This document shows, one piece after another, positions 32,132-55,638 of a DNA stretch of 64,000 nucleotides. Position 1 is the first letter of the stretch, and every line of letters begins with the position of its first letter. The notes under the pieces are model-generated. The model was not told the DNA's origin, made no database searches, and saw only the letters and a program-made list of their open reading frames with translations. The translations under genes were made by a program, and so were the position numbers. The DNA is from Xenophilus azovorans DSM 13620 (GTDB lineage Bacteria > Pseudomonadota > Gammaproteobacteria > Burkholderiales > Burkholderiaceae_C): NCBI RefSeq assembly GCF_000745855.1, contig NZ_JQKD01000023.1, positions 1 to 64,000 of the forward strand, in the 5' to 3' direction.

Positions 32132-32216
32132 TGGTGCCGTCGGCGAGACTCGAACTCGCACAGCTTTCGCCACTACCCCCTCAAGATAGCGTGTCTACCA
32201 ATTCCACCACGACGGC
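32132..32216 (-). tRNA. leuU: tRNA-Leu (anticodon GAG)
   Basis: On the minus strand the 5' acceptor GCCGTCG (ending at 32216) pairs with CGACGGC, followed by discriminator A and an encoded CCA (32132-32134). The anticodon stem CTATC/GGTAG encloses the loop TTGAGGG with anticodon GAG, which reads CUC/CUU. A long variable arm (class II tRNA) and a TTCGAGT T-loop are present. The position directly after secG matches the secG-leuU order known in Escherichia coli. Confidence 0.96.
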
Positions 32217-40719: not shown

Positions 40720-41454
40720 ATGGAAACACACCTGAAAACCACCCGGAGCGACGGAACGCGCTCCGATGTGCTGCTGATCTTTCTGCCGGGCGCCTTCCTC
40801 GCGCCGGATGAGTTCGAGCGCGAAGGCTTCATCAGCGCCATGACGGAGCGCGACGTCGCGGCCGACGTGATGCTGGTGGACGCCAACGTCTCCTACTACT
40901 ACGACCAGACTTTCACCACCCACCTGCAGCAGGATGTGCTCGATCCGGCGCGCGCGCTGGGCTACCGCTCGATCTGGCTGGTGGGCATTTCCATCGGCGG
41001 CTTCGGCGCGCTGATCCACCAGTTGGCGCAGCCGGGCTCGGTGCAGGGCATCGTGGCGCTGGCGCCCTACCTGGGCCGGCGTCCGCTGGCGGCCGAGATC
41101 CGCAAGGCCGGCGGCCTGCGCGCCTGGAAGGCGCCCGACGGCCCGCTGCCCGACGAGGAAGTGGACCGGCGCCTGTGGCCCTGGCTGCAGCAGTACGCCG
41201 ACGAGATGCCGACCAAGGAATTGCCGCCGCTGTACCTGGGCTTCGGCCTGGCGGACCGCTTCGCCGCCAACCATGCGCTGCTGGCCGAGGTGCTGCCCGA
41301 GGACCGCGTCTTCACCACCGAGGGCGGCCACGACTGGCCGCAGTGGTCGCGCCTGTGGCGGCGCATGCTGGAGGTGCTGCCGCTGCCCTCGCGGTCGCCG
41401 TCCGCGCCGGCGTTCAGGACACCGGCAGCGCGTCCAAGGGCCATCGCGGCCTGA
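40720..41454 (+). CDS. Alpha/beta-hydrolase fold protein
   Basis: 244 residues. A GISIGG nucleophile elbow puts the Ser near residue 91. A probable acid is Asp near 178 (LGFGLADRF) and a His near 204 ([10 protein letters not shown]), consistent with an alpha/beta hydrolase. [14 protein letters not shown] near the start would form the oxyanion loop. No signal peptide is seen, so it is probably cytoplasmic. The substrate is unknown. The ATG at 40720 is chosen; a GTG at 40606 would add 38 basic residues. Its 3' end overlaps the convergent tsaD by 41 bp. Confidence 0.75.
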
Positions 41455-42451
41455 CGTCGAAGGCATAGCGCGTGGTCGGCGCTTCCAGCCCGGCCTCCAG
41501 GCGCATCGCGGCGGCCATGGCGATCATGGCGCCGTTGTCGGTGCACAGGGCCAGCTCCGGATAGTGAACGCGCACGCCGCGGCGCCGGCAGGCGGCGTCG
41601 AGCTGCGCGCGCAGCAGCCGGTTGGCGCCGACGCCGCCGGCGACCACCAGGCGCTTCATGCCGGTCTGGTCCAGCGCGGCAAGCGATTTGCGCAGCAGCA
41701 CCTCGACGATGGCGGCCTGCGTGGCGGCAGCGAGGTCGGCCTTGCGCGATGCCAGCGCATCGCCCAGCTTCTTGGCCTGCGTCAGCACCGCGGTCTTCAG
41801 GCCGGCGAAGGAGAAGTCCAGGTCGCCGCTGTGCAGCAGCGGGCGCGGCAGGCGGAAGGCCTCCGGGTCGCCGCCCTCGGCCAGCTTCGACAGCCACGGC
41901 CCGCCGGGGTACGGCAGCCCCATGAGCTTGGCGCTCTTGTCGAAGGCCTCGCCGGCCGCGTCGTCGATGGTCTCGCCGAGGATCTCGTAGCGCCCCACGC
42001 CCTCGACGCGCATCAACTGCGTATGGCCGCCCGAGACCAGCAGGGCGACGAAGGGGAACTCTGGCGGATCGGCGCCGAGGAAGGGCGAGAGCAGATGCCC
42101 TTCGAGGTGGTGCACGCCCAGCACCGGCCGCCCCAGCGCCGCGCCCAGCGCACAGGCCACGCCGGCGCCCACCAGCAGCGCGCCGGCCAGGCCGGGGCCG
42201 CGCGTGTAGGCCACCACGTCGATGGCGTCGCGTTCGACGCCCGCCTCGGCCAGCACCGCCCGCGTGAGCGGGAGCACGCGCCGGATGTGGTCGCGGCTGG
42301 CCAGCTCCGGCACCACGCCGCCGTAGGCCTGGTGCATGTCGATCTGGCTGTGTAGCGCATGCGCCAGCAGGCGCGGCACGCCGGCGCCGCGCGCCTCGAC
42401 CAGCGCCACGCCGGTTTCGTCGCAGGAGGATTCGATGCCCAGGACTCGCAT
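41414..42451 (-). CDS. tsaD: tRNA N6-adenosine threonylcarbamoyltransferase TsaD
   Basis: 345 residues, ASKHA fold. The start [20 protein letters not shown] is diagnostic. The metal-binding His pair is in [14 protein letters not shown] near residue 112, followed by VSGGHTQLM and the nucleotide-site [16 protein letters not shown] near residue 270. It makes t6A37 in ANN-decoding tRNAs with TsaB and TsaE, which are not in this window. It is 47 bp after the GT2 gene and may be read from the polysaccharide operon. Confidence 0.95.
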
Positions 42452-42498
42452 GGGCCGCGAGTCTACGGGGCGCGGCGCGGGCGTGCCGGCGGCGGGGT

Positions 42499-43386
42499 TC
42501 AGGGCAGGTGCAGCACCCGTTCGGGCACGGCGCTTCCCTTCAGCGTGTCCAGCAGCGCCATGGCGTTGCCGGCGAGCCGGCCCCTGCGGTCCACCCAGGG
42601 CTCGGGCACCGGGCTGCGCAAGACGTTGGCGAGCAGGTTCCTGCCGACGTGGGCCAGGGCCTTGCCCCAGGCCATGGTGCCCTTGCGGGCCAGGTACAGC
42701 GGGTTGGCGACCTGCGAGTAGCCCAGGCGCCGGCCCGAGGTGCGGCCCGCGCGCTTGGTGCCCAGGTGCACACCCCGCAGGCGCGTGGCGCAGACGACGT
42801 CGCCATGCAGTGCGAGCTGGCGCGAGAAGTCCACGTCCTCCAGCCAGGCGTACAGCGGCAGGCGCTCGTCGAACCGGATGCGGTGCGCGTGCGCGGGCGC
42901 CATCCGCACGGCCATGTTGCATCCATAGCCGTTGTAGGTGGGCGAGATGCGTCCCGGCTCCGTCCCGGGCGGCGATTGCGCGAGGAGCCGGGCCCCCTCG
43001 TCGAATTCGATGCCCGGCCCCAGGATGCCGTCGGCCAGCACCTTGCCCGTCGCCACGACGATCCCCGGATGGCACAGGAACAGGCGCTCGGCCTCGGCCA
43101 GGTAGTCGTCGGCGGGAAGGAAGTCGTCATCGAAGAAGACCACGATGTCCGCATCGGTGGCATCGAGCAGCGCGTTGCGCTGCGCCGACGAGCCGACCGG
43201 CCCGGACACGATCCGTGCGGGGGCCGGGAAGTCCTGCAGGCACGCGGCGTCGAAGTCGCCGGAGCGCGCGGGGCAGATCAGCAGTTCGTCGGGCTGGCGC
43301 AACTGGCGCCGGAGATGGCCCACGGTGTCGGCGCTGATCTTGGGGCGACCCGCGGTCGCGATGGCAACGGCAATCTTCAGGCACAT
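42499..43386 (-). CDS. Family 2-type glycosyltransferase
   Basis: 295 residues, GT-A fold, probably cytoplasmic or membrane-associated. The nucleotide-sugar site shows [20 protein letters not shown] then [13 protein letters not shown] near residue 85 (the DxD motif). A later [14 protein letters not shown] is the usual ED region before the catalytic base. It would add one sugar to the lipid-linked repeat unit. The ATG at 43386 ([13 protein letters not shown]) is preferred to one at 43434. It is the last glycan gene before tsaD. Confidence 0.82.
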
Positions 43387-43487
43387 GGGGAACAGGAAAG
43401 CGATGGCGGGAGCGGTCGTCCCCACAGGGGGCACGCCGCTCCAGGGTCATTGAAACGGGGGGCGAGGATGGGCCGGCGAGACGCCGG

Positions 43488-44666
43488 CTAGGGTCCGGCG
43501 TTCGGTTTGCCGAGCGCGCGGCTGGCGCCGAGCACCGACGGACCCCGCGCGGCAGCGGACCACGAGGGCTGCGCCGCGGCGATCTCGAGCAGCCGGCGTG
43601 CCGCCCGCTCCCAGGTGAAGAGCGCGGCGCGGCGCGCACCCCGCTCCCGCAGCGATCCGGCCAGGGCCGGGTCGTCGCGCAGCCGCAGGATCTGCGCCTC
43701 CCACGCCTGGGCGTCGTGCGGATCGGCCCACAGCGCCGCCTTGGCGCACACCTCGGGCAGCGCACCGCAGGGCGCCGCGATGACGGGGCAGCCGAGCGCC
43801 ATCGCCTCCAGCGGTGGCAGGCCGAAGCCTTCGGTCAGCGAGGGGAAGGCCAGCGCCGCGGCCCTGCGCAGCAGGCCGGCGAGCTGCTCGTCGCTGATGC
43901 GGCCCAGGAACCTCACGTTCGGCGGAACCTCGTGCCCCTGGCGCTCGAAGTCCTCGCGCGTCGCCGCCCCGAACAGCGCCAGGGTCATGTCGCCCAGCCG
44001 GCCGGACCGGAAGGCCTTCAGCAGCAGGCCGATGTTCTTGTGCACCTGGGTGTTCGCCAGCGCGACGACGAAGCGGCCGTCGGCCAGGCCGAAGGCGCGC
44101 GCCGCGTCCTCGTCGGGCACCAGCCGCAGGACGTGATCGCAGCCGTTGTGGACCACCAGGCTGCGCGCCGCATCGGCCACGCCGTACTGGTCGAGTTGGG
44201 CGCGGGAATACTGCGAGACGGTGAGGATCCCCCGGTTGCGCCGGCCCAGCCGCGGCTGCACCAGCCGGTACCACGCACGGAAGCCGCGCGAGTACGACGC
44301 CGGCGAACTGTGGACCTGCGCGTCATGGATCATCGTGAACGCATCGCGGTGCAGCACCGGCCCGAGGTTGCAGAAGTTCAGCAGCGTCGCGCCCCGCGCC
44401 TGCCACGGCAGCACCAGTTGCTCCCAGGGGATGCCCTTGAGTGCGGCGCTCCTCCGGCCGACGCTGTGCATGCGGATGTGGGAGAAGGCGATGTCCGGGA
44501 GCCAGTCTCCCGGCACCAGCAGGCGGCACGGATGGGCCCGCGCCAGTGCCGCGTCGCGGGCCAGCACGGCGTCCAGGGCCAGGACCAGCTCGTAGGCGAC
44601 GCGATGGACGCCCGAGCGGCTGGCCGATCGCTGGAGAAACTTGCCGTTGATCACTAACTCGGTCAT
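43488..44666 (-). CDS. Family 4-type glycosyltransferase
   Basis: 392 residues, GT-B fold. The C-terminal sugar-nucleotide domain has VVALANTQVHKNIGLLLKAF near residue 205 and the EX7E motif in FPSLTEGFGLPPLEAMALG near residue 290. It retains anomeric configuration. It opens with TELVINGKFLQRSASRSGVH, a start seen in mannosyltransferase-like GT4 proteins; the sugar is not determinable. It is 52 bp after the flippase gene. Confidence 0.85.
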   Translation of the reverse strand: MTELVINGKFLQRSASRSGVHRVAYELVLALDAVLARDAALARAHPCRLLVPGDWLPDIAFSHIRMHSVGRRSAALKGIPWEQLVLPWQARGATLLNFCNLGPVLHRDAFTMIHDAQVHSSPASYSRGFRAWYRLVQPRLGRRNRGILTVSQYSRAQLDQYGVADAARSLVVHNGCDHVLRLVPDEDAARAFGLADGRFVVALANTQVHKNIGLLLKAFRSGRLGDMTLALFGAATREDFERQGHEVPPNVRFLGRISDEQLAGLLRRAAALAFPSLTEGFGLPPLEAMALGCPVIAAPCGALPEVCAKAALWADPHDAQAWEAQILRLRDDPALAGSLRERGARRAALFTWERAARRLLEIAAAQPSWSAAARGPSVLGASRALGKPNAGP

Positions 44667-44718
44667 GGGGCAGAAAAGCAGGCGGTGGTGTTGTGGTGAA
44701 AAGGTTGGCGGCGGCGCC

Positions 44719-46251
44719 TCAGCGCCCCGGTCCGCTGGCCGCGGGCGATTCGCCCGGCGCGGCGCGGTGGCGCCGGTACCGCGCGAGCCAGGCGGCAGCG
44801 GTCTCGAAGGCATGCTGCTCGAACCCGGCGGGCCGTCCCGTCCATCGCCAGACGATCCACACGCACAGGCCGTAGACCAGCAGATAAAGCAGGAAGATCG
44901 GCAGGCCGAGGGCGACCAGGCCGAACACGTTGGCAGCGCCCGAGACGGCGGGCTGCGTGGCCCACAGGAGCGCGCCGGCCGGCAGCACGGCGATGAAGGG
45001 GATGCGCAGCATGCCCAGTTGCGCGCGCACGCTGGCGCCGGACAGGTGGCGGACGATGAGGAACGACACCGCGGTGGTCGCCAGGGAACTCACGGCACTG
45101 GCGGCGATGACCCCCGGAATGCCGTGGTGCGCAGCGCCCCACCACACCAGCGGCACCCGGATCAGCAGGTCGATCACGGTGCGCCGCGCCAGCCAGTGGG
45201 TGCGGTCCAGCATCTGCGTCAGCGCGCCCATGAGCAGCGCCGGCATGCCGAGCAGCGACGCGGCGCTGATCCACTGCAGCCATTGCGCCGCCGAGAGCCA
45301 GTTGGGGCCCAGCGCCACCCGGATCAGCGCCTCGGGCCATAGCACCGGCACCGTCATCGCGGGCACCATGACCACCAGCATGGCGCGCGAAAGCTGCACA
45401 TAGCGCGCGCCGGCAGTGGGACCGGCGGAGGCGAGCGCCGTCATCGCCGGACGCAGCAGCGGCACCGCCAGCGCCTGGATGGGTATCTCCGAGATCTGCT
45501 TGGCGATCGAGTACTGGCCGAACGCCGCGATGGGCGTCAGGCGCGACAGCAGCAGCCGGTCGATCTGCCAGTTCAGCGCCGAACAGAACTGGGCCACGAA
45601 GTTCCAGCCGAGGAAGTTCGAGAAGCGATGCCACTCGGACAGGCTCAGGCGGGGCCGGAACGGCGCGACCACGTACGACGCCAGCGTGCCGAGCACGGGC
45701 GAGCAGATCGTGGCGGCAGCGATGGCCCAGTAGCTGCCCGTCGCGGCCGCCAGCGCGACGGAGACGACGAAGGCGAGCACCTTGCCGGACAGTTCCACCA
45801 CCGCGTCGGGCTGGAAATTGAATGCACGCGCGTACTCCACCATGCGCGGGCTGCTCATCCCCCGCGCGGCCGGCGCCAGCGCCAGCACGGACAGCAGCAC
45901 CGCCAGCCGCGGCTCGTTGTTGAACCACGCGAGCGGCCAGGCCAGCGCCAGCAGCAGCACGCCGATGGCGAAGCCGCGCAGCAGGCCCAGCGTGAACGCC
46001 GTGTTCAGCATCGCGCGCGTGACGCTCGGCCCGCGCAGCAGCGCCACCGAAGTCGGCAGATCCAGCAGCGCCTCGACCACGAAGACGACGGCCATCGCCA
46101 TCGCGACCAGGCCGAAGTCCGCCGGCCCGAGGAAGCGGGCCAGGCAGAACAGCATGGCCAGGTCGATCAGCTTGGCCGACAGCCGCGCGCCCACCGTCCA
46201 TGCGCCCGCCGCCGCGACGCGACGGGCCAGGTCCTTCTGGTCAGGCGCCAT
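44719..46251 (-). CDS. Wzx-type polysaccharide flippase (MOP superfamily)
   Basis: 510 residues with about 12-14 membrane segments. The N-terminus VGARLSAKLIDLAMLFCLAR followed by FLGPADFGLVAMAMAVVF is typical of the polysaccharide_synt branch of MOP flippases. It would move the undecaprenyl-linked repeat across the inner membrane for polymerisation. The ATG at 46251 overlaps the upstream gene by 11 bp. The cytoplasmic C-terminal tail (ARYRRHRAAPGESPAASGPGR) is unremarkable. Confidence 0.87.
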   Translation of the reverse strand: MAPDQKDLARRVAAAGAWTVGARLSAKLIDLAMLFCLARFLGPADFGLVAMAMAVVFVVEALLDLPTSVALLRGPSVTRAMLNTAFTLGLLRGFAIGVLLLALAWPLAWFNNEPRLAVLLSVLALAPAARGMSSPRMVEYARAFNFQPDAVVELSGKVLAFVVSVALAAATGSYWAIAAATICSPVLGTLASYVVAPFRPRLSLSEWHRFSNFLGWNFVAQFCSALNWQIDRLLLSRLTPIAAFGQYSIAKQISEIPIQALAVPLLRPAMTALASAGPTAGARYVQLSRAMLVVMVPAMTVPVLWPEALIRVALGPNWLSAAQWLQWISAASLLGMPALLMGALTQMLDRTHWLARRTVIDLLIRVPLVWWGAAHHGIPGVIAASAVSSLATTAVSFLIVRHLSGASVRAQLGMLRIPFIAVLPAGALLWATQPAVSGAANVFGLVALGLPIFLLYLLVYGLCVWIVWRWTGRPAGFEQHAFETAAAWLARYRRHRAAPGESPAASGPGR

Positions 46252-47689
46252 GTGCGTTGCGCGCAGCGGAGAACGGCGACGATGCTGCGCTGACCTGGGC
46301 CCGGAAGGAGGATGCAGCACTGGTGGCCGCCATCGCGAAGCCGTAGAGGAACGCGTTGAAGAGGCCGAAATCCGGCGACGTCCCGATCACCAGGCTGGAC
46401 ACGAAGGGGGCCGCATAGGCCCAGCGGATGCCCACCAGCAGCGCCTGGCCCTGCACGTCGAACGGCGCGGCCCGCCGCAACGCGAGGCACTGGACCACGA
46501 AGGCGAGGTAGCACAGCGTGGCGAGCACCCCCGCGTTGCTGGCCAGGGCCACGAGCAGGTTGGAGGCGCGCGTTCCCCCGAGGCCCACGCCCAGGCCGTA
46601 GGTGGCCGCCACCGCGTCCCACGCCACCTGCGTCCACATGTTGCGCTCCTCGAAGGAGCTGCTGGCCGCCTTCTGCAGGACCCAGGTGTCGATGCGCTCC
46701 GTTACGGGCGCGAGCAGTTGCGGGAACGCCACCACCAGCAGCAGCAGGGTGGTCAGCACGCCCAGGCCGATCATGAATTCGCGCAGCAGCCCGCGGTGCA
46801 GGTAGGGGTTGCGGCGCGCCCCGACCGCGCGCCATCCCCACTCCGCGACCGCTGCGCAGGCGAACACGCCGAAGCCCAGGTAGGCCGCCGACGACGTCGA
46901 CAGCCACAGCAGCAGCACCAGCATCACCAGCAGCACGGGCACGATGCGGTCGCGCAGCAGGCCGGCCGGCATGGCGCGGCGCAGGAAGTACAGCGCCACC
47001 AGGAAGCTCAGCGTCAGGTAGCCGAAGGTGGACGCCTCCGGCATCAGGCCCACGACGCGCTTGCCGTCCACCACCTCGATGCTGGTGAGCAGCGCGTAGG
47101 TGGCGGTGCGGAACGGCTCCAGCAGGCCCTCCAGCGGCAGGAACAGCGTCCCGAAGTCCAGCAGGCCGGTGAACACGGCCATGGCCGCGCCGAGGCACAG
47201 CGCCGCCAGCACGTGGCGGCGCATGGCGGTGGTGCGCAGCATCCTCGTGAAGACGAACACCATCGCCACCGAGATGCTGAGGTAGAGCAGCTGCGACAGG
47301 TTCTGCAGCGACGGCGCCAGCGGGCCGGCACCGATGTCGTCCTGGCGCAGCGGCACCACGACCACCTCGCCGGCGAACAGGCGGGGCATGAACAGCGTGG
47401 TGATGCAGGCGAAAGCCCAGAACAGGAAGAGCCACGCCAGGCGGCTGGGGCGTGTCGCCATCCCGAGGGCGTAGGCGAGTTCGTCCTTGCCGATGAAGTG
47501 CCGGACGATCAGCAGCACGGCCACGATCGGGGCCGGCGTGAGCGTGAGGCCGGCCAGCAAGGCAGGGGGCACCACGGCGAAGGAGCCGAAGGACATCGCC
47601 CCGAAGAACAGGTACACGAGCCGGTGGCTGCGCCCCACGAAGGCCCAGGCGGCCAGGCACCAGAAGACGGCGATCGGGATCAGGTCCAT
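46241..47689 (-). CDS. O-antigen ligase/polymerase-like membrane protein (Wzy-type)
   Basis: 482 residues with about 12 membrane segments and a larger periplasmic loop near residues 310-350 (PVTERIDTWVLQKAASSSFE). Topology, the motif EASTFGYLTLSFLVALYFL near residue 215 and its place next to a flippase suggest the polymerase of a Wzx/Wzy system. These proteins diverge quickly, so an O-antigen ligase (WaaL) role cannot be excluded. It overlaps both neighbours by about 10 bp. Confidence 0.72.
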   Translation of the reverse strand: MDLIPIAVFWCLAAWAFVGRSHRLVYLFFGAMSFGSFAVVPPALLAGLTLTPAPIVAVLLIVRHFIGKDELAYALGMATRPSRLAWLFLFWAFACITTLFMPRLFAGEVVVVPLRQDDIGAGPLAPSLQNLSQLLYLSISVAMVFVFTRMLRTTAMRRHVLAALCLGAAMAVFTGLLDFGTLFLPLEGLLEPFRTATYALLTSIEVVDGKRVVGLMPEASTFGYLTLSFLVALYFLRRAMPAGLLRDRIVPVLLVMLVLLLWLSTSSAAYLGFGVFACAAVAEWGWRAVGARRNPYLHRGLLREFMIGLGVLTTLLLLVVAFPQLLAPVTERIDTWVLQKAASSSFEERNMWTQVAWDAVAATYGLGVGLGGTRASNLLVALASNAGVLATLCYLAFVVQCLALRRAAPFDVQGQALLVGIRWAYAAPFVSSLVIGTSPDFGLFNAFLYGFAMAATSAASSFRAQVSAASSPFSAARNAHGA

Positions 47690-48894
47690 GCCGACGCCTC
47701 CCTGGCCGGTGCAGGATCAGGCCGGGTGCTCAGCCGGCCGATCAGCTCGGCCATCCGCGCCCGGAAGACGGCCGTGTCGAACGAACGGGCGTGCGTCCGG
47801 AGCGCCTGGGCGTCGAAGGACGGCTCGGCCGCCTCGAAGCGCCGGATGGCGTCGACCATCGACTCGGTCGTCTGCTCATGGAAGAGCAGCCCCGTGCGGC
47901 CGTCCACCACCGTTTCGAGGGCGCCGCCGCGCGCATAGGCGATCACCGGCCGACCGCTGGCCATGACCTCCAGCGGGACGATGCCGAAGTCCTCCACGCC
48001 GGGGAACAGCAGCGCCCTGCAGCCGGCGAAGCTGCGCACCATCTCCTCGTCCGTCACCGGCCCGAGGAATTCCACCGTGGGTCCGGCCAGCCGCTTCAGC
48101 GCCGCGTTGGCGCCGGAGCCGATGACCCGCAGCCGCCGGCCCAGGCGCGTGCAGGCCTCCACCGCGATCTCGATCTTCTTGTAGGGCGTGATCTGCCCCG
48201 CGCACAGGTAGTACTCGCCCGGCGCCGCCGAGGCCGGCGCTGCGAAGCGCGACAGGTCCACGGGGGGATGGACGACCAGCGCATCGCGCCGGTAGTACTT
48301 CTCGATGCGGCGCGCCACGTAGGCCGAGTTGGCGATGAAGTGGTCCACGCGGTGCGCGGTGCTCACGTCCCACTGGCGCAGCAGCGGCGCCGCCAGCGAC
48401 ATCATGGTGCGCGTCACGGCGCCCGAGGCGGCGCGGTACTGGGGATACAGGTCCCAGATGTAGCGCATGGGCGAGTGGCAGTAGCAGATGTGCGTGGCGT
48501 CGGGCCCCGGCACGATGCCCTTGGCCGGGCCGGCCTCGCTGGAGATGATCAGGTCGTAGCCCGTCAGGTCGAACGACTCCAGCGCGAAGGGCATCAGCGG
48601 CAGCATCTTCTGGTAGTGCCGCACACCGCCGATCTTCTGCAGGAAGGAGGTGTGGATGCGATGGCGCCGCAGCCGGGGCGAGATGGCCGCCGGGTCGCAC
48701 ACCAGCGTGAAGATGTCGGCGTCGGGATACAGGTCGCTCAGGACCTCCAGCACCTTCTCGCCGCCGCGCATGCCGACCAGCCAGTAGTGGACCAGCGCCA
48801 CCCGCATCCGCCGGTTCGCCGCGGCAGCCGTCTGCACGGCGCCGCCGCCGTGGTCGTCGTCGGCATACCGGAGCAGGGCGGCGCTAGTACGCAT
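47680..48894 (-). CDS. Family 4-type glycosyltransferase (WbaZ-like)
   Basis: 404 residues if started at 48894, or 375 from the ATG at 48807 (MRVALVHYWLVGMRGGEKVL). The second start looks like the true enzyme N-terminus, but the first follows the 10-11 bp overlap pattern of this operon. GT-B fold: HICYCHSPMRYIWDLYPQYR near residue 140, and the EX7E motif in FPGVEDFGIVPLEVMASGRP near residue 310. WbaZ-like enzymes are often mannosyltransferases; that is family knowledge, not shown here. Confidence 0.85.
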   Translation of the reverse strand: MRTSAALLRYADDDHGGGAVQTAAAANRRMRVALVHYWLVGMRGGEKVLEVLSDLYPDADIFTLVCDPAAISPRLRRHRIHTSFLQKIGGVRHYQKMLPLMPFALESFDLTGYDLIISSEAGPAKGIVPGPDATHICYCHSPMRYIWDLYPQYRAASGAVTRTMMSLAAPLLRQWDVSTAHRVDHFIANSAYVARRIEKYYRRDALVVHPPVDLSRFAAPASAAPGEYYLCAGQITPYKKIEIAVEACTRLGRRLRVIGSGANAALKRLAGPTVEFLGPVTDEEMVRSFAGCRALLFPGVEDFGIVPLEVMASGRPVIAYARGGALETVVDGRTGLLFHEQTTESMVDAIRRFEAAEPSFDAQALRTHARSFDTAVFRARMAELIGRLSTRPDPAPAREASAWT

Positions 48895-50305
48895 TCTTGT
48901 GGACGAACCCTTTGAACAGGGTCAGGAAGATGATCCAGAGATCGAAGCCCAGCGACCAGTTCTGGATGTAGAAGATGTCGCACTCGATGCGCTTGGCCAG
49001 GTCGGTCGAGCCGCGCCAGCCGTTGATCTGGGCCCATCCGGTGATGCCGGCCTTGACCATGTGCTTCTTCATGTAGGCCGGGATCTCGTTCTTGAACTTC
49101 TCGACGAACACCGGCCGCTCGGGACGCGGCCCGACGATGGACATGTCGCCCATCAGCACATTGATGAACTGCGGCAGCTCGTCCAGGCTGGTCTTGCGCA
49201 GGAAGGCACCCACCCGCGTGGCGCGCTGCTCGCCCGCCTTGGCCCACACGGCGCCGCTGCGCTGCTCCGCATCGACCGGCATGGAGCGGAACTTGAGCAT
49301 CTGGAAGCGCTGGTTGTTCCAGCTCACGCGCTCCTGCCGGTAGAACACCGGCCCGGGCGAGCTGAGCTTGACGGCGACGGCGATCAGCAGCATCAGCGGC
49401 GAGATGAGCAGCAGGATCAGGAAGGCCAGCAGCCGGTCCTCGACCGCCTTGACGATGCGCGAGACGCCCTGCAGCGGCGTCTGCTGCAGCGTGATCACCG
49501 GCAGGCCCGCCACCTCCTCGACCGAGTGGTTCAGCAGGTGGATGCCGAAGAGATCGGGCACCAGCCGGATGTCGGCCGTGCAGTGCCGCAACTGGCTGAC
49601 GGCCGCCGCGATCTGCGCCTGCTCCTGCAGCGGCATCGCCAGCCAGACCTGAGCGATCTGGTGCGACTCCACGTACTCGCCCAGGCGCTCCAGCGACCCG
49701 AGCATCGGTGCGCCGGTCAACTGGCTGCGGTCCGCATCGGTCGCGAACCAGCCGCACACCTCGATGCCGGCCCACTTGTTGCGCCGGAGCACGTCGACCA
49801 GCCGCTGCGCGTCCGGATTGGCGCCGACCACGACGGCCGAACGCGCGTCCATGCCCTGCGCCCGCACCCAGTTGGCCGCCCCGCGGACCACCGCGCGGAA
49901 GACCACCGCGCCGCCCAGGCCCAGCACGAACCACCCGAACCACCACAGGCGCGACAGGTCGTGCCCCACCTTGAACGCCAGCACGTACACCGCCAGCAGG
50001 CAGAAGATGATCATCCACATGGCGGCCAGCTGCATGGCCTCGCTGGCGACGCTGTGCCCGCGCCAGCTGCGGTACACCGAGCCGCCGTTGAGCACGATCA
50101 TGGCCAGCAGCACGCCGTGGCTGATCACCTGCGCGTAGTCGGCTTCCACCGACACATGGCCGAAGCGCAGCGCGAATGCCAGGACGCCCGCCGCGCCGAA
50201 GATCATGACGTCGCCGACGCGCAACGCCAGCCCCAGCATGGCATTCATGCTGCCGGCGGCCAGAATGGGTGCTTTGGTCCCGTCGTTGACGGACGCGAAC
50301 AGCAT
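48884..50305 (-). CDS. wcaJ: Undecaprenyl-phosphate sugar phosphotransferase, WcaJ-type
   Basis: 473 residues. Four or five N-terminal membrane segments, a soluble CoA-binding-like middle domain ([20 protein letters not shown] near residue 140), and a C-terminal bacterial sugar transferase domain with [40 protein letters not shown] and VGPRPERP. It starts the glycan by moving a sugar-1-phosphate (glucose in WcaJ itself) to undecaprenyl phosphate. It is the first gene of the polysaccharide operon, preceded by the regulatory region at 50331-50515. Confidence 0.9.
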
Positions 50306-50330
50306 GGACGTTCCCCTGAGCCGTTACACC

Positions 50331-50345
50331 TGGATAAGTTATCCA
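50331..50345. promoter_or_regulatory. Palindrome upstream of wcaJ
   Basis: TGGATAAGTTATCCA is a perfect 7+1+7 palindrome 26 bp before the wcaJ start. TTGAAC (complement of 50356-50361) 15-17 bases further upstream could be a -35, which would place the palindrome over the -10 and start site. A repressor or activator site is plausible. Confidence 0.5.
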
Positions 50346-50477
50346 GTAATAAGAAGGTTCAAATATTACACAGCCATCGGGCGCCCGCGCGATAGCACGG
50401 ACGGCCGCCGAGGCCCTTCCGATCGGCCAATGGAGGCTGTGTGAAGCCGAAGATCGCTCCTCGGCCAGGGGGCAACT

Positions 50478-50515
50478 GTACTACTTACAGGTTATTTGTA
50501 CTACTTCCAGTTTAA
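50478..50515. repeat. Tandem 19-bp direct repeat upstream of the polysaccharide operon
   Basis: TGTACTACTTACAGGTTAT (50478-50496) is followed directly by TGTACTACTTCCAGTTTAA (50497-50515), with 16 of 19 positions identical. The pair lies about 175 bp upstream of wcaJ in a locally AT-rich stretch. Two adjacent copies with near two-turn spacing suggest cooperative protein binding. The rest of 50306-50599 holds the palindrome at 50331, a spaced inverted repeat ACACAGCC/GGCTGTGT (50368-50442) and the hisF terminator. Confidence 0.6.
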
Positions 50516-50542
50516 TTTTCTGGACGAAATCAGGAAGTAAAT

Positions 50543-50587
50543 ACAAAAGTGCATGCATCGCCGCACGCGGTGCGGGCGCGAGCATGC
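50543..50587 (-). terminator. Terminator of the histidine operon
   Basis: Two-tier hairpin: outer GCATGC (50551-50556 with 50582-50587) and inner CCGCAC (50561-50566) with GTGCGG (50570-50575). On the minus strand it is followed by ACTTTTGTATTT. It lies 12 bp after the hisF stop. Confidence 0.7.
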
Positions 50588-50599
50588 GGCTGCGACTTG

Positions 50600-51379
50600 T
50601 TACAGCCGGACGGGGATGCCGCGCTCGGCCATGCGGGCTTTGGCCTCGCCCACGGTGTGCTCGCCGTAGTGGAAGATGCTGGCGGCCAGCACCGCATCGG
50701 CGCCGCCCTGCTGGACGCCGTCGGCCAGATGGTCGAGGCTGCCGACGCCGCCGGAGGCGATCACCGGCACGCTCACCGCGTCGGCCACGGCGCGGGTGAG
50801 CGCGAGGTCGAAGCCGCTCTTCGTGCCGTCGCGGTCCATGCTGGTCAGCAGGATCTCGCCGGCGCCGCGGCGCGCCATCTCCACCGCCCACTGCACGGCG
50901 TCCAGGCCGGTGTTGCGGCGCCCGCCGTGGCTGTAGACGTCCCAGCCCGGGCCGCGCACGGCCTCCTCCTCGGGGGTGCGGCGCTTGGCGTCGATGGCGA
51001 CGACGATGCACTGCGCGCCGTACTTGTCCGAGGCGTCCTGGATGACCTGGGGGTTGGCGATGGCGGCGGAATTGAAGCTGGTCTTGTCGGCCCCGGCGTT
51101 GAGCAGGCGGCGCACGTCGTCCACCGTGCGCACCCCGCCGCCCACCGTGAGCGGAATGAACACCTGCGAGGCCACCGCCTCGATCAGGTGCAGGATCAGG
51201 TCGCGCTCGTCGCTGGTGGCGGTGATGTCCAGGAAGGTCAGTTCGTCGGCGCCCTGCGCGTTGTAGCGCGCCGCGATCTCGACCGGGTCGCCCGCGTCGC
51301 GCAGTTCCACGAAGTTGACGCCCTTGACGACGCGGCCGCCGGTGACGTCGAGGCAGGGGATGATGCGTTTGGCCAGCAT
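50600..51379 (-). CDS. hisF: Imidazole glycerol phosphate synthase subunit HisF
   Basis: 259 residues, TIM barrel. The catalytic Asp residues are in [20 protein letters not shown] near residue 11 and [13 protein letters not shown] near residue 131. With HisH it converts PRFAR and ammonia to imidazole glycerol phosphate and AICAR. It is the last his gene here. A terminator follows, where hisI and hisE would be expected in related genomes. It is separated from hisA by a mutarotase gene. Confidence 0.96.
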
Positions 51380-51410: not shown

Positions 51411-52238
51411 TCAAGAGAGCGCGGCGAGTTCCTGCCACGCCGTCCAGCGGGCGCCGGGCGCCAGCACGACGGGCGCGTCGATGCAGGCCGCCTCCACGCA
51501 CAGCATGTGGCGCCAGCCGTCGTCGGGCAGGTCGGCCAGGCGGGCGCCGAGCTCGGGGCCGGGATTCCACACCACCGTCTCGGTGCAGGTCGCGCTCTGC
51601 GTGATCGCCAGGCGCGTGCCGCCGCCGGCCAGGTGCAGCGGCCGGGCCGGGGCCGCATAGACGCTGTCGAATTCCTCGCCGAAGCGCAGGGCCGGAGCCG
51701 GCTCGGAGAAGCGCCGGTCGCGCACCGCATCCCAGCGGGCGGCGCCCTGCAGGCCTTCGAGGCTGGCCGCGGCCGCGTCGTCCACCCGCAGGTAGGTGTG
51801 CAGCGCCGCGGTGAAGGACCAGGGCGTGTCGCCGGTGTTGTGCGCTTCCAGCGTCAGGCGCAGCCGGCCGGGCGCGAGCCCGACCTGCAGCCGCAGCGCG
51901 AAGCGCTCGGGCCAGAAGGCCTGCGTCGCCGGCCCGTCATGCAGCGTCAACGCCAGCACGTCGCCTTCTTTCGCCTGCCACGGCAGGTTGCGCGCGAAGC
52001 CGTGCTTGGGCAGCGGCCCGCGCTGGTTGAACTGCGGAAAACATACCGGCACGCCGCCGCGGATGGCGCCGTGCCCGTCGAACAGCGCCCGCGGGCTCAG
52101 GTACAGGCGCTCGATGCCGTCGGCCGTGCGCCAGGACAGCACGTGGCCTCCATGCAGGGCGACCATCACGCAGTCGCCTTCGGGCAGGGTCTGGCGCAGC
52201 GCCGGCTGGCCGTTGAACTCGACGCGTTCGATGCTCAT
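51411..52238 (-). CDS. D-hexose-6-phosphate mutarotase (aldose 1-epimerase family)
   Basis: 275 residues, YeaD-like beta-sandwich. Typical sequences are [40 protein letters not shown] and [10 protein letters not shown]; a later HTYLRVDD His and a C-terminal Glu in [13 protein letters not shown] complete the active site. It equilibrates anomers of hexose-6-phosphates. Its place between hisA and hisF is unusual for a his operon, and it may have been inserted. Upstream is a GC hairpin at 52270-52301. Confidence 0.88.
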
Positions 52239-52269
52239 TGGATAACCTTCGCACTTCGTGCTGCGGTGC

Positions 52270-52301
52270 GAGCCCCCTTCGGAGCGGCCGGGCGGGGGCT
52301 C
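52270..52301. repeat. GC-rich hairpin between hisA and the mutarotase gene
   Basis: GAGCCCCC (52270-52277) and GGGGGCTC (52294-52301) form an 8-bp stem. No T-tract follows on the minus strand, so transcription probably continues. It may be a remnant of the family of dispersed GC-rich intergenic repeats and marks the edge of a possible insertion. Confidence 0.5.
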
Positions 52302-52332
52302 ATGCGGCTCGGCAAGCGCGGGGCAGGCGGCC

Positions 52333-53076
52333 TCAGGCGCCGGCCAGTTCGTCCGCGCGCGCCTGCGCGGCGGCGAAGTCGAGGTCGCCCGAGTAGATGG
52401 CACGCCCGCAGATCACGCCCTCGACGCCCTCGCCCTCCACCGCGCACAGCTTCTCGATGTCGGCGATGTTGGACAGCCCGCCCGAGGCGATGACGGGGAT
52501 GGTGAGGGACTGCGCGAGCTTGACGGTGGCGTCGATGTTGATGCCCGAGAGCATGCCGTCGCGGCCGATGTCGGTGTAGATGATGGACTCGACGCCGTAG
52601 TCCTCGAACTTCTTGCCCAGGTCGACCACCTCGTGGCCGGTGAGCTTGCTCCAGCCGTCGGTGGCGACCTTGCCGTCCTTGGCGTCGAGGCCGACGATGA
52701 TGTGGCCGCCGAAGGCGCTGCAGGCGTCCTTGAGGAAGCCGGGGTTCTTCACCGCCGCGGTGCCGATGATCACGTAGCGCAGGCCGTCGTCGATGTAGCG
52801 CTCGATGGTGTCCAGGTCGCGGATGCCGCCGCCGAGCTGCACGGGGATCTCGTCGCCCACGGCGCGCAGGATGGACTTGATGGCCGCATGGTTCTGCGGC
52901 TTGCCGGCGAAGGCGCCGTTCAGGTCCACCAGGTGCAGCCGGCGCGCGCCGGCCTCGACCCATTGCAGGGCCATGGCGGCCGGGTCTTCGCTGAACACGG
53001 TCGATTGGTCCATGTCGCCCTGCTTGAGGCGAACGCAGTGGCCATCCTTGAGGTCGATCGCGGGAATGAGAAGCAT
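52333..53076 (-). CDS. hisA: ProFAR isomerase HisA
   Basis: 247 residues, TIM barrel related to HisF. The catalytic Asp is in [20 protein letters not shown] near residue 8, the second in [14 protein letters not shown] near residue 131. It performs the Amadori rearrangement of ProFAR to PRFAR, the step before HisHF. It is 129 bp after hisH, and this gap shows no recognisable feature. Confidence 0.96.
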
Positions 53077-53205
53077 GGTGTCGCGAGGTGCGGCAGGTGG
53101 AAGAAACGGCGCGGAGAAAGAAAGAAGGCAGGCGGGCCTGTCAGCCAGGCATCTGGCGCGCGGCGGGAAGGCCCGACGCGCCGGGCACTCGGAGAAGGGT
53201 CGGCT

Positions 53206-53853
53206 TCAGGGATTCCAGTGGAGGAAGTTGCGGTACAGCTGCAACCCGTGGTCCGCACTCTTCTCGGGGTGGAACTGGGTCGCAAAAATGTTATCGCGGG
53301 CCACGGCAGCGGTAAAGCGCGCGCCGTACTCGGCCTCTCCCACGCTGTGGGCGCAGTCGCGGGGCCGGGCATAGAAGCTGTGGACGAAATAGAAGTGCGT
53401 GCCGTCGGGCACGCCGGCCCACAGCGCGTGCGGGCGGGCCTGCATCACCTGGTTCCAGCCCATCTGGGGCACCTTGTAGAGGCTGCCGTCGGGCTGGCGC
53501 TGGCCCTCGAGCCGGAAGCGCAGGACCTCGCCGGGGATCAGGCCCAGCCCCTCGGAAGGGCCCTCCTCGCTGCGCGAGAGCAGCATCTGCATGCCCACGC
53601 ACACGCCGAACAGCGGCTTGGAGGCGGCCGCCTCCAGCACCGATTCGAGCAGGCCCGACTCGCGCAGCTCGCGCATGCAGTCGGGCATGGCGCCCTGCCC
53701 CGGCAGCACCACGCGCGTGGCGCGGCGCACCACGTCGGGGTCGGCGGTGACGAGCACCTCGACCCCGGCCTGGTCGGCCGCATGGCGCACGGCCTGCGAG
53801 ACGGACCAGAGGTTGCCCATGCCGTAGTCGACGACGGCGACGGAATTCGTCAT
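53206..53853 (-). CDS. hisH: Imidazole glycerol phosphate synthase subunit HisH
   Basis: 215 residues, class I glutamine amidotransferase. The nucleophile Cys is in [12 protein letters not shown] near residue 86, the catalytic His/Glu in [10 protein letters not shown] near residue 197. It supplies ammonia to HisF. It starts 34 bp after hisB. Confidence 0.95.
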
Positions 53854-53887
53854 GGCGGACTGAAAGGGTGGGATCTGTCGGGAAGGG

Positions 53888-54529
53888 CTACAGCGTGCCC
53901 TTGGTCGAGGGGATGACGCCGGCCGAGCGCGGGTCCCGCTCCAGCGCGGCGCGCACGGCGCGGGCGAAGGCCTTGAACACCGTCTCGCACTGGTGGTGCG
54001 CGTTCACGCCCTTGAGATTGTCGATATGCAGCGTGACCAGCGCGTGGTTGGCGAAGCCCTGGAAGAATTCGAAGGCCAGTTGGGTGTCGAAGCCACCGAT
54101 CATGCCGCTGGTGAAGGGCACGTCCATGTGCAGGCCGGGGCGGCCGGAAAAATCGATCACCACGCGCGACAGCGCCTCGTCCAGCGGCACGTAGGCATGG
54201 CCGTAGCGGCGGATGCCCTTCTTGTCGCCCACCGCCTTCGCCACCGCCTGGCCGAGCGTGATGCCCACGTCCTCCACCGTGTGGTGGCCGTCGATGTGCA
54301 GGTCGCCCTGGCACTCGACGTCCAGGTCGATCAGGCCGTGGCGGGCGATCTGGTCCAGCATGTGGTCGAAGAAGCCGATGCCGGTGGCGAGCGTCGCGCG
54401 GCCGGTGCCGTCGAGATCGACGCGCACGCGGATCTTCGTCTCGGCGGTGTCGCGGGTGACTTCCGCCACGCGCGCGGGAGCGTTGCCGCTGGCGGCGACG
54501 ATGGCGTCGGGGGCCGTGGGGGTATTCAT
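53888..54529 (-). CDS. hisB: Imidazoleglycerol-phosphate dehydratase HisB
   Basis: 213 residues, monofunctional (no phosphatase domain). Metal-binding His motifs are in [16 protein letters not shown] near residue 52, [15 protein letters not shown] near residue 78, and [19 protein letters not shown] near residue 180. It dehydrates IGP to imidazole acetol phosphate. An N-terminal extension of about 18 residues is not conserved-looking. The ATG overlaps the hisC stop (ATGA). Confidence 0.96.
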
Positions 54530-55638
54530 AAGGAGGCTTCCAGCGCGGCGAGCATGCGCGCGTTCTCGTCGGCCGTGCCGACGGTCAGGCGCAGGCAGTT
54601 CGCCAGCAACGGGTGCATTCTAGAAACGTTCTTCACCAGCACCCCGTGTGCCTTCATGCCGGCGAAGGTCTTGTCGGCGTCGGCGACGCGCAGCAGCACC
54701 ATGTTGGCGTCGCTGGGCCAGACCCTCACGCCCGGCAGCCGGCCGAGCGCCTCGACCAACACCGCGCGGTCGCGCCGGATGGCCTCGGCCTGCTGCACGA
54801 ACACGTCGGCGTGCTCCAGCGCGAAGAGCGCGCATTCGCAGTTCAGCACGCTGATGTTGTAGGGCGGGCGGACCTTGTCGAGTTCGGCCACCAGTGCCTG
54901 CGGGCCGATCAGGTAGCCCAGCCGCACGCCGGCCAGGCCGAACTTGCTGAGCGTGCGCATCAGCAGCACGTGGCCGTGCCGCGCCGGTTCGCGGCGGATG
55001 GCGTCGAGCCAGGTGCGGCCGGCGAAGGGCTGGTAGGCCTCGTCGACCACCACCAGGCCGCCGTGCGCGCCCTGGGCGTCGATCAGGCGCTGCACCACGG
55101 CCGTGTCCCACAGGTTGGCGGTGGGGTTGTTGGGATAGGCCAGGTAGAGGATGACCGGGCGCTCGCGCTCGATGGCGGCGAGCATGGCGGCCTCGTCGAG
55201 CGCGAAGTCGGCGGTCAGCGGCACGCCGGTGAACTCCAGGCCCTGCAGCTGCGCGCTGATGGCGTACATGACGAAGCCCGGCAGCGGCGCCAGGATGCCG
55301 GCGCCCGGCAGGTCGCAGGCCATGGCGATCAGCGAGATCAGCTCGTCGGAGCCGTTGCCCAGCATGAGCGCGTGGCCCTCGGGCACGCCGGCGTGGGCGG
55401 CCAGCGCGCGCTTCAGGTCCTCGCCGCGCTCGCCGGGGTAGCGGTTCAGCGCCAGCGCGCCCAGGCGCTCGCCCAGCGCCTGCTGCAGCTCGGGCGGCAG
55501 GCGGTAGGGGTTCTCCATCGCGTCCAGCTTGAGCAGCCCGCGCGCGTCCTGCACGGCATAGGCGTGCATGTCGCGCACGTCGGGGCGCAGGCGCGCCAGG
55601 GCGCGGACGGTGAGGTCGGTCGAGGAAGAGGACGGCAT
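54526..55638 (-). CDS. hisC: Histidinol-phosphate aminotransferase HisC
   Basis: 370 residues, PLP fold type I. The PLP Lys is in [20 protein letters not shown] near residue 232, with [11 protein letters not shown] and [11 protein letters not shown] before it. It converts imidazole acetol phosphate to histidinol phosphate. It lies 12 bp after the small periplasmic protein gene, so it is still in the operon. Confidence 0.95.

Follow-up and report, generated by a model that had tools for sequence, protein, structure and literature searches.

Results

A six-gene glycan operon follows hisF

We analysed a 64,000-nucleotide stretch (the window) of the genome of Xenophilus azovorans DSM 13620 (G000, a draft assembly of 132 contigs), in which a six-gene glycan operon stands between the histidine gene hisF and tsaD. 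As the initial annotation of this DNA had described, the operon follows hisF (50600–51379, minus strand; TIGR00735, 370.5 bits) in the same orientation, with six minus-strand genes at 42499–50305. Gene families were assigned from profile matches (Pfam, NCBIfam). The first gene encodes a WcaJ-type undecaprenyl-phosphate hexose-1-phosphate transferase of 473 amino acids (the initiator, 48884–50305; TIGR03023, 509.8 bits with a cut-off of 410.75; PF02397 and PF13727). It is followed by the glycosyltransferase (GT) gene GT4a (47680–48894; PF00534, 2.8e-21), a gene for a Wzy-like polymerase of 482 amino acids (46241–47689), named from its position and homologues, and a Wzx flippase gene (44719–46251; PF13440, 1.4e-46, scanned from a longer start at 46320). 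Two further glycosyltransferase genes complete the set, GT4b (43488–44666; PF00534, 4e-25, longer start 44813) and GT2 (42499–43386; PF00535, 1.1e-05, longer start 43434). All six frames are open and tightly packed. The first four genes overlap by 10–11 bp (initiator/GT4a, GT4a/Wzy and Wzy/Wzx) and therefore look like one transcription unit.

The operon thereby holds an initiator of the Wzx/Wzy pathway, scoring above the TIGR03023 cut-off, and a PST-type Wzx flippase recognised by PF13440. OPX and PCP genes are absent from 42499–50305, and the profile scan detected no wza, wzc or sugar-nucleotide genes among the six, in agreement with the initial annotation. When the Wzy-like protein is aligned with six homologues, 41 columns are invariant. 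One of these six homologues matches PF04932 weakly, the window protein itself matches no family, and the homologues sit among polysaccharide genes.

Two reciprocal new junctions

Downstream of the operon, a 47-bp spacer (42452–42498, minus strand) separates GT2 from its new downstream neighbour, tsaD (41414–42451, minus strand; TIGR03723, 423.5 bits). The hisI gene, identified by profile (PF01502), is single-copy in G000 and is located with hisE on contig C23, at 19473. It is followed there by hisE, a DUF4870-like gene, HIT, tatA, tatB and tatC (these names, like hem and rne below, were assigned by sequence recognition). On the other side of hisI, 68 bp away, lies a divergent gene with NIT and ANTAR domains, and therefore a nitrate-sensing regulator. 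In the same-genus set of 15 genomes including G000, this regulator and tsaD are divergent neighbours in all 14 relatives. Two new junctions that are reciprocal to each other are therefore present in G000: hisF–[glycan operon]–tsaD and regulator–hisI. The initial annotation had suggested a variable locus, brought into a conserved operon by insertion or by rearrangement. This is supported, and the event in G000 can be refined: the hisF|hisI joint and the regulator|tsaD locus have exchanged junctions, which is more than a plain insertion.

The regulator side on C23 retains a box, GCAAATTCC(A/G)TGCCCC, which ends about 35 bp before hisI and is also present in six of seven aligned relatives, G004 being off at two bases. 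The TACACT found upstream of tsaD in all 14 relatives reads TAGACT in G000, where the spacing to the start codon is about 2 bp longer. With a conserved box on one side and the tsaD-side motif on the other, the breaks therefore appear to lie in the spacers, with the genes spared. The hallmarks of an integrative mobile island (integrase, flanking repeats or tRNA target) were not found: there is no direct repeat of at least 9 bp between 42380–42520 and 50290–50620 (one 9-bp inverted match), no tRNA near the junctions (the sole tRNA of the window is at 32132–32216) and no integrase or recombinase recognised among the junction genes. In G003 and G004 a single contig carries both the his and the tsaD locus; the two point the same way and are separated by about 471 and 511 kb, respectively. 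A single inversion of this order would not produce the order of the window; other ancestral orders are possible.

The hisF|hisI joint in relatives

Distances between hisF and hisI in the genus were computed from the match coordinates of hisF and hisI searches, which used the same queries and were preceded by a wider hisF search. The continuity presumed in the initial annotation holds for seven of the 14 relatives, which have no polysaccharide locus at the joint: hisF and hisI are 138–139 bp apart in six of them (G002, G007, G009, G012, G013 and G014) and 466 bp apart in G004. Between the two genes of G004 we also noted a VanZ-like frame (L036 7997–8371; 29.7 bits, cut-off 30.1), possibly the scar of a lost polysaccharide locus.

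The other seven relatives, with hisF and hisI 8.4–25.1 kb apart, all carry polysaccharide genes at the joint. Six of them (G001, G005, G006, G008, G010 and G011) have the export half only, in a gap of 8.43–8.47 kb where wza runs in the same direction as the his genes, whereas wzc, yjbH and the gene for a wzb-type phosphatase are on the opposite strand (genes listed for G001 and G005; families of wza, wzc and yjbH checked in G001). The seventh, G003, has both halves: in its 25.1-kb gap, wza and wzc-wzb-yjbH bracket sugar-nucleotide, flippase and transferase genes (by recognition), many of which are at 39–51% GC (guanine plus cytosine). The relatives do not share an order in which hisF is followed by the glycan genes and hisIE is always elsewhere.

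In a tree of 11 concatenated proteins and 22 taxa (hisA, hisB and hisH from 20 taxa, hisC from 17, tsaD and the regulator from 15), G000 groups with the six-member clade having 138–139 bp spacers, at a support of only 73. A second clade unites the six genomes that carry export genes at hisF (100), and a third pairs G003 with G004 (100); the second and third are sister clades (94). Therefore, either two or more arrivals of polysaccharide genes at the joint or repeated losses from it have to be assumed.

Among the best 80 named hisF loci retained in a survey beyond the genus, hisI is found within 500 bp in 63 and at 627–802 bp in 6, and none is seen in 11, three of which had less than 500 bp of downstream sequence. 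G000 departs from the contiguous betaproteobacterial his operon, with hisI within 500 bp of hisF. Loci lacking an adjoining hisI occur in several lineages, which makes the hisF|hisI joint a recurrent point of breakage. A hisBHAF core has been described (PMC10138114), and the joint lies at its edge. By recognition, rsmD- and/or coaD-like genes follow hisF in six Rubrivivax/Roseateles-type and other Burkholderiales loci (L089, L093, L095, L097, L099 and L106), and other genes follow it in one Rhodoferax.

Export genes elsewhere in the genome

The reliance on functions encoded elsewhere that the initial annotation had proposed is supported, as G000 has two Poly_export (Wza) genes at other sites, on contigs C19 and C47, compared to one in each of the 14 relatives. 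OPX and PCP genes are thus both present in the genome. On C19, recognised by PF02563 and Wzz/GNVR domains, the order is hemY-wza-wzc-rne, with neither wzb nor glycan genes. At the same hemY-rne position, wza-wzb-wzc is followed in G007, G009 and G013 by 9–10 kb of glycan genes that extend up to rne; G002 and G012 have the same wza-wzb-wzc with partial rne matches (the comparison covered these five genomes; the G014 locus was left out). The Wza and Wzc of C19 are 66–74% identical to those of the relatives' hemY-rne clusters. For loci L175, L177, L179 and L180 the comparison was by tblastn.

C47 carries an apparently complete locus, yjbH-wzb-wzc ... initiator-wza (PF02563 for wza; wzc identified by tblastn and blastp), and its export genes belong to the type found at hisF in relatives. 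Its Wzy-like protein matches PF04932 below the cut-off and its flippase-like protein has no Pfam match.

In three of the six relatives with export genes at hisF, those whose other locus was read (G001, G008 and G011), the initiator is found at a distant locus with a class I fumarase gene as its neighbour (family checked in G001), and in G001 and G008 it is followed by low-GC flippase and transferase genes. Export and assembly halves therefore lie apart in at least these relatives. Variovorax sp. Root411 shows another site of export genes: wza and a nucleotide-sugar dehydrogenase-like gene (L061 18287–20776) come after pdxA-mscL, about 7.5 kb from hisF.

Relatives of the block

The Wzy-like protein was matched in only one of the 15 genus genomes, the window's own, in 8 of 399 family genomes including the window's own, and in 17 plasmid records with a best identity of 57%. 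One plasmid, CP099606 of the leaf bacterium Comamonadaceae bacterium OTU4NAUVB1 (L182 82584–107930), carries five collinear genes, with protein identities of 77% for GT4a, 55% for wzy, 59% for wzx, 63% for GT4b and 62% for GT2. The plasmid has a different initiator, and a gene for a wzc-type kinase is located 4.4 kb upstream of the block. At the DNA level, it is 72.7% identical to the window block over 71% of the block; no plasmid among 300 matching records covers 80% of it. No Poly_export gene is found on the entire 159-kb plasmid, so the plasmid block too would have to borrow Wza.

In the family, the Wzy homologues of G303 and G363 are in loci with OPX and Wzc-type genes. Those of G195, G140 and G396 are near tyrosine kinases (best match EpsG, below cut-off), and the G140 homologue is also near an exosortase.

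The initial annotation had suggested comparing the base composition and codon use of the operon with its flanks. GC (0.67–0.73) and GC at third codon positions (0.93–0.96) of the glycan genes match the flanks. Relative codon adaptation is lower, at 0.60–0.70 compared to 0.755 ± 0.062 for the 57 other window genes. Host-like GC with somewhat lower codon adaptation would fit a high-GC donor and does not prove one.

Neighbouring features

Upstream of the operon the gene order is hisC-B-H-A-epimerase-hisF, with hisF as the last gene of the truncated his operon and the remaining genes (hisC, hisB, hisH, hisA and an aldose-epimerase-like gene) at 51411–55638 on the minus strand. The aldose-1-epimerase-like gene (51411–52238), between hisA and hisF, is also present in all 14 relatives and in three Variovorax loci. 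G007, G009, G013 and G014 have an extra 3.7–4 kb between hisA and this gene; in G007 the extra stretch encodes, by recognition, a dicarboxylate-carrier-like transporter, a binding protein and an AAA-type gene product.

The spacer between hisF and wcaJ (50306–50599, minus strand) contains a terminator-like hairpin and repeated GTAGTACA motifs, and its best match among the loci compared has an E value of 0.63. The terminator that the initial annotation placed after hisF is weak: two overlapping consensus hits are found at 50549–50568, with 0.6 ± 1.0 hits expected. Before wcaJ, positions 50440–50545 are AT-rich and contain two CTG(G/T)AAGTAGTACA direct repeats 20 bp apart plus an inverted partner, which resemble tandem regulator sites. 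The tandem AAGTAGTACA pair is found only at 50477 and 50497 in a search of the window, L032–L051 and the loci from L140 with one mismatch allowed. The motif was also considered as a link between the glycan operon and the wza loci and was rejected, the tandem pair being absent from the loci searched.

Discussion

Taken together, the operon was probably acquired horizontally and is likely to encode the assembly half of an exopolysaccharide pathway of the Wzx/Wzy type whose genes are split between loci; it stands at an exchanged junction and would be supplied with export functions from elsewhere. Loading of the first sugar onto undecaprenyl phosphate would fall to the WcaJ-type enzyme and lengthening of the repeat unit to the three glycosyltransferases; Wzx would flip the unit and the Wzy-like protein would polymerise it. 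Wzc and Wza, for chain-length control and export, would be encoded at a different site in the genome, which could be the orphan wza-wzc pair of C19 or the apparently complete locus of C47. We infer that GT4a-wzy-wzx-GT4b-GT2 arrived horizontally from a high-GC source like that on the Comamonadaceae plasmid, and that a chromosome rearrangement joined hisF to tsaD and the nitrate-sensing regulator to hisI by breaks in the spacers.

Several observations weigh against this interpretation. The Wzy assignment relies on position and homologues with no family match; a single-sequence AlphaFold prediction of the protein failed to fold (mean predicted local distance difference test score 44.7), and a seven-protein profile of it and its homologues matched no PDB chain. 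Codon use of the block is only mildly unusual. With matches in seven of the 398 other family genomes and in 17 plasmid records, the source is thinly sampled. As for the export partner, the Wzc of plasmid CP099606 is 58.7% identical to the C47 Wzc compared to 45.2% to the C19 Wzc, which weakens the case for C19 as the matching complement. Genome layout points to C19 and the plasmid Wzc comparison to C47, and both are candidate partners. Finally, no Poly_export gene is near the wzy homologue in four of six family relatives (G195, G140, G294 and G396, three of these on contigs of 27–34 kb); in G195 the OPX gene is about 99 kb distant, and in the other three it is found on a different contig.

This last observation, like the lack of wza and wzc among the six genes, would also suit an operon making lipopolysaccharide O-antigen or a protein-glycosylation glycan, which needs Wzx, Wzy and a ligase and can do without Wza and Wzc; a separate PF04932 protein on C31 could be that ligase. 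We nevertheless regard this as unlikely, given that the wzy homologues of G303, G363 and CP099606 are near wzc-type genes, those of G303 and G363 are near OPX genes as well, and those of G195, G140 and G396 are near the EpsG-like kinases, with the exosortase in G140. It is comparably improbable that two unrelated events took place, the glycan operon coming to hisF (or replacing an older locus there) and hisI moving independently. The seven relatives with polysaccharide genes at the joint do keep hisI on its far side, the junctions are devoid of repeat, integrase or tRNA, and the inversion considered above does not yield the window order. Nonetheless, the partners of hisF|hisI and regulator|tsaD are exchanged exactly at the new junctions, which is not expected from independent moves.

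The 25-kb locus that G003 retains at the same joint raises the question of whether the operon is a non-functional relic of a once complete hisF-linked locus. The open, closely packed frames make this very unlikely, as does the fact that G000 has its own equivalents of the export genes linked to hisF (wza, wzc, wzb and yjbH) on C47. An assembly artefact fusing unrelated contigs, conceivable in a draft of 132 contigs, is the least credible explanation and can almost be dismissed: both new junctions are inside contigs, of 100 and 90 kb, at least 19 kb from an end, and base composition is unchanged across the join in the window.

Beyond the assembly-half interpretation, we tentatively propose a broader one that is possible and rather doubtful. 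The hisF|hisI joint might be a recurrent site of both docking and breakage at which the genus exchanges interchangeable half-pathways, assembly and export modules being swapped separately. Export halves in one clade, the assembly half in G000 and a whole locus in a third lineage would then be outcomes of the same process.

The locus is a clear example from nature of how an ancient biosynthetic operon can break where its conserved hisBHAF core ends, and of how assembly and export can be encoded as two separable halves of one polysaccharide pathway. Since some relatives show the reverse arrangement, the genus lends itself to testing whether Wzx/Wzy assembly and Wza/Wzc export modules are interchangeable.

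In Enterobacteria, the galF-gnd O-antigen/colanic acid region is beside the end of the his operon. Those polysaccharide genes follow hisI, whereas the window genes part hisF from hisI. Our literature searches retrieved no paper on a polysaccharide locus inside the his operon, nor on a recurrent his-operon site.

Split Wzx/Wzy loci, on the other hand, are already known. For EPS, MASC and BPS of Myxococcus xanthus, one study describes pathways whose genes for Wzx, Wzy, Wza and Wzc are spread over two or more separated chromosomal loci and are contiguous in other species (PMC7310880). Pathway genes at separated loci are thus common to both systems, but the M. xanthus split is described as the result of large insertions within clusters, whereas here an amino-acid operon is the site of a putative assembly half, with candidate loci for the matching export half. 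Two clusters that each carry a wza are described in PMC11340318. Dispersed polysaccharide genes are likewise shared with the sanxan pathway of Sphingomonas sanxanigenens NX02, for which a cluster-scatter-cluster cycle is proposed (PMC5399355). Unlike the sanxan genes, those of G000 form two compact sets, and its relatives have export halves at the same site. A further counterpart is the block of plasmid CP099606, which shares GT4a-wzy-wzx-GT4b-GT2 in the same order and orientation but is plasmid-borne, with another initiator, wzc-type and pyruvyl transferase genes upstream, and a position away from his genes.

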